In this document: one piece after another, positions 593-55,553 of the stretch | How positions within the stretch are numbered: position 1 is the first letter of the stretch | How the letters are laid out: each line of letters opens with the position of its first letter | NCBI GenBank assembly: GCA_025350405.1 | Contig: JANXXX010000021.1 | Coordinates: forward strand, 49,958 to 113,957 | Direction: 5' to 3' | DNA length: 64,000 bases | Origin: Gallionella sp. | Lineage (GTDB): Bacteria > Pseudomonadota > Gammaproteobacteria > Burkholderiales > Gallionellaceae | Position numbers and translations under genes: made by a program | The notes under the pieces: model-generated | Seen by the model: only the letters and a program-made list of their open reading frames with translations | What the model was told of the DNA's origin: nothing | Databases searched by the model: none

Positions 593-734
593 AGGGTGCC
601 TCTATAAATTCAAAATCCTAAGCGAGACAAGACGCGAATGAAATTTTTGCGCGCCGCATATGTTTGATATGTAAACAGTAAGAATTCTTGGGTAACGCAG
701 TATCGTGACGGGGTTTGGATTTATAGTGGGACCC
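593..734. repeat. MITE-like inverted-repeat element, copy 1 (mshL-mshM gap)
   Basis: The left end AGGGTGCCTCTATAAATTCAA pairs imperfectly with the right end TTGGATTTATAGTGGGACCCT. The core GCGCCGCATATGTTTGATATGTAA and the following GTAACGCAG match the cores of the copies at 24778 and 55412. It has no coding capacity. It fills the whole space between the mshL stop and the mshM start, and its left end supplies the mshM ribosome-binding site on the minus strand. Confidence 0.8.
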
Positions 735-24777: not shown

Positions 24778-24978
24778 AAGGGTGCCTCAAAAAATTCAGA
24801 GTTCGCCCAAATGCCCCACAAGGGGACGCCGATCCACTACGGGCGAAAGCAGCCCGTGCGGAGTCGTCAGCAAGGCGTGAAAAAATTTCACAGCGCCGCA
24901 TATGATTGATATGTTAGCAAGAAATTTTTTTCGCAACGCAGCAGTTGGGATTAAATCTGGATTTTTAGAGGTACCCTT
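24778..24978. repeat. MITE-like inverted-repeat element, copy 2 (rpoZ-spoT gap)
   Basis: The left end AAGGGTGCCTCAAAAAATTCAGA matches the reverse complement of the right end TCTGGATTTTTAGAGGTACCCTT at about 19 of 23 positions. The core GCGCCGCATATGATTGATATG and CGCAACGCAGCAGTTGGGAT is almost identical to copy 3. Relative to copy 3 it carries about 60 extra bases after CCAAATG that themselves contain short palindromes (CCCCACAAGGGG). It ends 2 bases before the spoT ATG and its AGAGG serves as the ribosome site. Confidence 0.85.
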
Positions 24979-54985: not shown

Positions 54986-55411
54986 TCAGGGGTGAGGTGT
55001 AACCCATGCCTCGCCCTGCGGCGTGATCTCCTTCTTCCAGATCGGCACGCGCTGCTTCAGTTCATCGATCAGCCAATGGCAGGCTTGCAATGCAGGCGCG
55101 CGGTGTTCGGCACCCGCCGCGATAAACACGATCTGCTCGCCCGCGCGAACCATGCCGACACGGTGCACGATGCGCGCATCCAGCAGCGCGAATTTCGCGA
55201 TTGCCTCGTCGCGCAACTTGTTCATCTCCGCCAGCGCCATGCTGCCGTAGGCATCGAAACTGATCTGCGTCACTTTGCGGCCTTCCGAGAAATCGCGCGC
55301 GCAGCCGATGAAGGTGGCGATGCCGCCCATGCGCTTCGAACTGGCGCGCAGCGCTGCAACTTCCTCGTCCAGGGAAAAATCTTCCTGCTGGAGTCGAACT
55401 GGATCTCTCAT
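54986..55411 (-). CDS. moaE: Molybdopterin synthase catalytic subunit MoaE
   Basis: 141 residues. The start MRDPVRLQQEDFSLDEEVAA leads to GGIATFIGCARDFSEG, YGSMALAEMNKL, and HRVGMVRAGEQIVFIAAGAEHRAPAL, with WKKEI at the end, all MoaE motifs. Its ribosome site is the terminal GAGG of a repeat element that ends exactly at the start codon. It works with MoaD. Confidence 0.95.
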   Translation of the reverse strand: MRDPVRLQQEDFSLDEEVAALRASSKRMGGIATFIGCARDFSEGRKVTQISFDAYGSMALAEMNKLRDEAIAKFALLDARIVHRVGMVRAGEQIVFIAAGAEHRAPALQACHWLIDELKQRVPIWKKEITPQGEAWVTPHP

Positions 55412-55551
55412 GAGGGCCTCAAAAATTCAGAGTTCGCACAAATGCAAGGCGCGGAACAAATTTCGCAGCGCCGCATATGAATTATATGTAAGCAAGAAAT
55501 TTTTTACGCAACGCAGCAGTTGGGATGAAATCTGGATTTTAGGGGCCCTCA
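55412..55551. repeat. MITE-like inverted-repeat element, copy 3 (moaD-moaE gap)
   Basis: The ends GAGGGCCTCAAAAATTCAGA and TCTGGATTTTAGGGGCCCTC are inverted repeats. The core (GCGCCGCATATGAATTATATG, AGCAAGAAATTTTTTACGCAACGCAGCAGTTGGGAT) is nearly the same as copy 2. It occupies the full gap between moaD stop and moaE start and supplies GAGG for moaE on the minus strand. Confidence 0.85.
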
Positions 55552-55553
55552 TT

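Follow-up and report, generated by a model that had tools for sequence, protein, structure and literature searches.

A Gallionella IS5-family MITE abuts start codons in operons and may supply the Shine-Dalgarno sequence of the downstream gene

The signals that MITEs are known to deliver to genes include promoters, protein-binding sites and sites of RNA cleavage. Among the described systems closest to the element reported here, the Correia repeat elements of Neisseria are characterised by the Correia consensus and a TA duplication. Like the Gallionella element, they are 100–160-bp MITEs that occur in many copies, lie close before genes, are co-transcribed with them and affect their expression. 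The known effects of Correia elements are exerted through promoters, IHF binding and RNase cleavage (PMC10969869), whereas the site brought by the Gallionella element is a predicted ribosome-binding site. An assignment to the Correia type was rejected, as the Gallionella element is set apart by its 4-bp TTAA-like duplication and by its host. For the Chunjie MITE of Geobacter, the title of the report (cited in PMC10969869) announces insertion into an operon with its structure undisturbed and, judged by this title, the likeness lies in operon insertion without disturbance. Outward reading of MITEAba12 of Acinetobacter can give the neighbouring gene a start codon and four residues (PMC6382973); its terminal repeat (TIR) adjoins the gene start, as it does here, but its effects are protein fusion and promoters, not Shine-Dalgarno replacement. 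The ERIC, BOX and RUP repeats are likewise hairpins that reside within operons and are co-transcribed, with reported effects on mRNA stability, attenuation or new ORFs (PMC2229807, PMC3049150). IS5-family ISs (NF033581) and their MITEs match the Gallionella element in TIR, in the 4-bp TTAA-like duplication and in having a partner transposase, which a Gallionella relative carries, although the Gallionella MITE has no coding capacity and shares with the partner IS only about 20 bp at its ends. The element is of a known kind; a search of the open-access literature found no account of a MITE end acting as a Shine-Dalgarno sequence, as a replacement ribosome-binding site or as a translational coupler.

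We analysed a 64,000-nucleotide stretch of a Gallionella genome (the window), in which three elements, located between mshL and mshM, rpoZ and spoT, and moaD and moaE, are related copies of one ~141-bp MITE. The copies, their Shine-Dalgarno-like GAGG motifs and the perfect target duplication of copy 3 are as follows.

594..734 (+), 141 bp: MITE copy 1, between mshL and mshM (minus-strand genes); TIRs and core align to those of 12 further copies
599..602 (−): GAGG in the TIR of copy 1, 11 nt before the mshM ATG (585-587); read from the sequence, absent in element-free orthologues
24780..24976 (+), 197 bp: MITE copy 2, between rpoZ and spoT; carries a nested hairpin insert of 57 bp
24968..24971 (+): GAGG in the right TIR of copy 2, 9 nt before the spoT ATG (24981)
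55408..55411: left target duplication TCAT of copy 3; contains the minus-strand moaE start codon
55412..55548 (+), 137 bp: MITE copy 3, between moaD and moaE (minus-strand genes)
55417..55420 (−): GAGG in the TIR of copy 3, 5 nt before the moaE ATG (55409-55411)
55549..55552: right target duplication TCAT of copy 3

A preliminary description of this DNA had reported a three-copy element lying between co-directional genes, 0–5 bases before the downstream ATG. The three window copies are real, with ends refined to 594-734, 24780-24976 and 55412-55548, and belong to a larger family that counts 13 copies in this genome. Their neighbours were confirmed by profile: mshL matches TIGR02519 just under the cut-off, the mshM product is an AAA ATPase, rpoZ and spoT match TIGR00690 and TIGR00691, respectively, moaD has a ThiS fold, and moaE matches molybdopterin-synthase models with scores below their cut-offs. 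Copies 1, 2 and 3 end 6, 4 and 0 nt from the downstream start codon, against the 0–5 bases given originally; the upstream stop codon lies 15, 15 and 5 nt from the element. As described, it is the left end of copies 1 and 3 that faces the downstream gene, in both cases on the minus strand, and the right end of copy 2 that faces one on the plus strand. The duplications of copies 1 and 2 are imperfect (GTAA/TCAA and TCAA/TTAA). A 24-base TIR pattern had no match in 100 shuffled windows, and the 12-base core searched alone with 2 mismatches allowed was at chance level. A search for Rho-independent terminators in and around copy 2 found none, and an Rfam search around four copies returned, as its sole match, a SAH riboswitch adjoining one of them.

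Some copies carry nested 50–65-bp hairpin inserts at two fixed internal places, one after CAAATGC (copy 2, window 24815-24871; C149) and the other at GCAGCA^GTTGGGATG (C37, C97 and C156, with C133 nearby). These inserts, two of which are nearly identical, look attC- or REP-like; besides window 24815-24871, the insert-bearing loci are L002, L008, L009, L010 and L011.

The family is a real and dispersed MITE, as its TIRs, 4-bp duplication and scattered copies attest. The ~141-bp element is gene-free and has at both ends TIRs of 15–20 bp, GGGNNCCTCTAAAAATTCAGA. Its 4-bp target duplication is mostly TTAA-like and is perfect in 61 of 205 copies, against 4.9 expected from shuffling; duplication lengths of 3, 5 and 6 bp gave no comparable count. 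The window's genome (2.84 Mb in 181 contigs) holds its 13 copies inclusive of the three in the window, relatives hold up to 28 or more per genome, and the element is present in 43 of 76 Gallionella genomes (E <= 1e-20). Within the order but in a different family, one genome, G039, has a more distant version with ~75% identity.

A 1279-bp IS5-family element in the relative G005 (L263:1304-2582) is likely the autonomous partner of the MITE. Its TIR, GGGCACYTCTAAAAATKCA, starts like that of the MITE, it is flanked by a TTAA duplication, and it encodes a 368-aa IS5-family transposase (NF033581, 289 bits against a cut-off of 140), features which suggest that the MITE is mobilised by a partner of this family. 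This IS was not found in the window's own genome, where the PF01609 loci were considered as partners and rejected, being without the MITE's TIRs. In G039, an IS of 1335 bp whose TIR starts like the MITE's is found in about ten places (L279-L287), its transposase frame being split there into two overlapping reading frames (302 + 169 aa).

The association of element ends with start codons is a real, quantitative effect across Gallionella genomes. Set 1 comprised 122 copies with flanks, 8 of which came from G039 and were excluded from the statistics; set 2, a validation set for which the prediction, prompted by clustering of starts 0–6 nt from the element end in set 1, was written down first, comprised 94 copies from genomes not used before. 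The 208 Gallionella copies thus obtained, which are the best-scoring and mostly young ones, come from draft metagenome assemblies with genes called on MAG contigs by a home-made caller, and represent 164 non-redundant copies after merging of orthologous insertions. With such merging, distances to the start of 0–6, 7–11 and 12–19 nt were seen for 38, 3 and 12 copies of set 1 and for 24, 4 and 4 copies of set 2. Under a genome-level null comprising all intergenic target sites of the same sequences, weighted by target preference, 17.0 copies are expected at 0–6 nt and 59 of 164 were found (P~1e-18, about 3.5-fold); the corresponding figures are 7 against 7.7 expected at 7–11 nt and 15 against 14.6 at 12–19 nt. 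Three start-calling settings gave the same 0–6 nt enrichment (P from 5e-14 to 3e-21). Either end can face the start, as had been proposed: the right one does so in 39 and the left one in 23 of 62 start-abutting copies.

Most of the 0–6 nt excess arises because copies reside in tiny operon gaps, in which every position is near a start. This was traced with a within-gap null, which uses the positions inside each copy's own gap together with target preference, and the genome-level null was therefore added. Within gaps, 60 of 149 copies lie at 0–6 nt against 50.6 expected (P=0.002), 7 lie at 7–11 nt against 14.3 (P=0.002), and when only gaps offering 12 or more possible sites are considered, the 0–6 nt count is 20 against 14.3 (P=0.04); taken alone, this bias is modest. 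The abutment of starts by all three window copies, which the preliminary description thought improbable by chance, is not the rule: only 5 of the 13 copies in the window's genome abut a start, and 105 of the 164 non-redundant copies lie elsewhere than 0–6 nt before one. Many copies away from starts had been named as grounds for doubt; they are indeed numerous, yet the 0–6 nt excess holds.

Such positions could be a by-product of insertion: AT-rich 4-mers (TTAA, TTAT, ATGA) would be favoured as targets by the transposase, compact genomes would offer few places where insertion does no harm, and the GAGG would go unused because native or leaderless initiation suffices. The TTAA-like targets agree with this, as do the shortness of co-directional gaps, more than half of which measure 20 nt or less, and the about 3-fold enrichment in convergent gaps (23 against 7.5 expected), which are without any start and where simple tolerance predicts it. 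We consider this explanation unlikely in view of (i) an expectation that is already weighted by target preference and yet leaves 7–19 nt without enrichment, (ii) the lack of room for a native signal between element and start at 0–6 nt, and (iii) the preservation of GAGG at start-facing rather than opposite ends, detailed below. When the distance is 12–19 nt, the sequence separating element and start often shows a native signal (for example, taggaggtcatcATG).

The distances also bear on the idea that the element, like Correia elements, brings a promoter and not a ribosome-binding site. Two weak sigma-70-like matches lie inside copy 2 (0.3 expected), and promoters have been published for other MITEs (PMC10969869). 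A promoter would, however, work equally well 70 or more nucleotides upstream, where copies are depleted (30 against 72 expected under the genome-level null), and the enrichment upstream of starts is confined to 0–6 nt, which makes this alternative very unlikely.

Orthologous gaps without the element favour replacement of a translation signal. At spoT, the anti-Shine-Dalgarno (aSD) energy has a median of −0.45 kcal/mol over 30 orthologues, whereas the three element-bearing ones reach −7.1 (the window's copy 2), −6.9 and −5.6 kcal/mol. The spoT-gap insertions of G000 and G022 have opposite orientations, each 4 nt from the ATG; the TTAA-ATG site at spoT was therefore hit at least twice independently. 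In G046 (L156), a TIR remnant, TTTAAGGGTGCCACAAA, stands directly before the spoT ATG and appears to be the footprint of a deletion or excision of the element. For mshM, the energy is −5.8 kcal/mol with the element against an orthologue median of −2.95. Relatives have a strong native signal for moaE, usually inside the moaD 3′ end (median −6.4 kcal/mol); the insertion moved this signal ~140 nt away and put one of −5.6 kcal/mol in its place. The same Shine-Dalgarno sequence in element-free relatives would have spoken against the TIR as its source; it was not found at spoT or mshM, whose native signals are weak, and moaE uses a different one. At another locus (L009, G000:C97), a ~17-bp repeat, AAAAATAGGAGNCTGTC, flanks the element and places a native Shine-Dalgarno on both of its sides.

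GAGG is retained in 83% (left) and 79% (right) of start-abutting ends, compared to 62% (left) and 65% (right) of stop-facing ends, and 85–91% of start-near ends have a Shine-Dalgarno core 5–11 nt from the start codon. Start-abutting ends have a mean anti-SD energy of −5.9 kcal/mol; the mean over all remaining ends is −4.6 kcal/mol (P=2e-6). When the two ends of the same copy are paired, which controls for copy age, GAGG is present only in the start-facing end in 11 copies and only in the opposite end in 2 (energy P=0.0015). The flanking TTTTT and CCC show no start-end bias in same-copy pairs (9 vs 12 and 3 vs 6, respectively); paired tests per position within GAGG were not individually significant, whereas the block as a whole is. 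Of all the evidence, this paired retention speaks most strongly for a site that matters once the element has inserted. The suggestion that insertion is tolerated or selected where it replaces a translation signal is partly supported by the kept GAGG and the 0–6 nt enrichment, part of which is due to tiny gaps.

Retention, together with spacings of 11, 9 and 5 nt in the window, fits the earlier reading of GAGG as the next gene's Shine-Dalgarno, which ribosomes would then use; what that reading had not foreseen is that the motif is predicted to be buried in a TIR:TIR hairpin. Its median predicted accessibility is 0.0, compared to 0.375 for ordinary starts of the same genomes, and a model ribosome blocking the upstream stop, a crude device, raises it only to 0.23 on average. 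Given this predicted burial, the hand-over of the ribosome-binding site probably needs upstream translation. The upstream gene is co-directional in 57 of 62 start-abutting copies, and in 39 of the 50 cases measured its stop is no more than 15 nt away from the element; combined with the buried Shine-Dalgarno, this favours coupled translation, by which the downstream gene would be translated in dependence on its upstream neighbour.

A strictly regulatory role, in which the downstream gene is kept shut by the hairpin as long as its upstream neighbour goes untranslated, and insertion is favoured for that regulation, would fit the near-zero predicted accessibility, as well as the predicted fold of copy 3 (−49 kcal/mol, z = −3.7), in which the moaE AUG forms base pairs with the duplicated AUGA that follows the moaD stop. 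It appears quite unlikely, as genes that are likely important (spoT, yqeY) sit behind copies, and start-abutting copies show no significant gain in TIR complementarity (P=0.48), which gives no sign of selection on the stem itself.

Combining these results, we consider the following model probable. An IS5-type transposase would move the ~141-bp MITE in trans. With the terminal repeat reading ..TTTTTAGAGGNNCCC outward at both ends, a target duplication that overlaps or touches a start codon would place AGAGG 5–11 nt upstream of that start, where it would replace the native Shine-Dalgarno that the insertion has moved ~140 nt away. Insertions of this type into short operon gaps would be tolerated and persist, and selection would then preserve the GAGG. 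TIR:TIR pairing in the transcript would hide the site, yet set the upstream stop beside the downstream start, and a ribosome terminating on the upstream gene would probably open the base of the stem near the Shine-Dalgarno, resulting in coupled translation. More tentatively, and as a possibility that we hold to be less than even, the element may be a portable translational coupler, whose stem joins upstream stop and downstream start and carries the Shine-Dalgarno, such that each operon-gap insertion keeps or newly creates coupling and many Gallionella operon junctions have been rebuilt in this way.

If true, a transposition end that doubles as a correctly spaced Shine-Dalgarno would explain how an element can invade operons without killing them. 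Dozens of natural replacements, matched by empty gaps at orthologous positions, are available in this family, which, if the model holds, would constitute a route for rewiring translation signals and coupling in operons.
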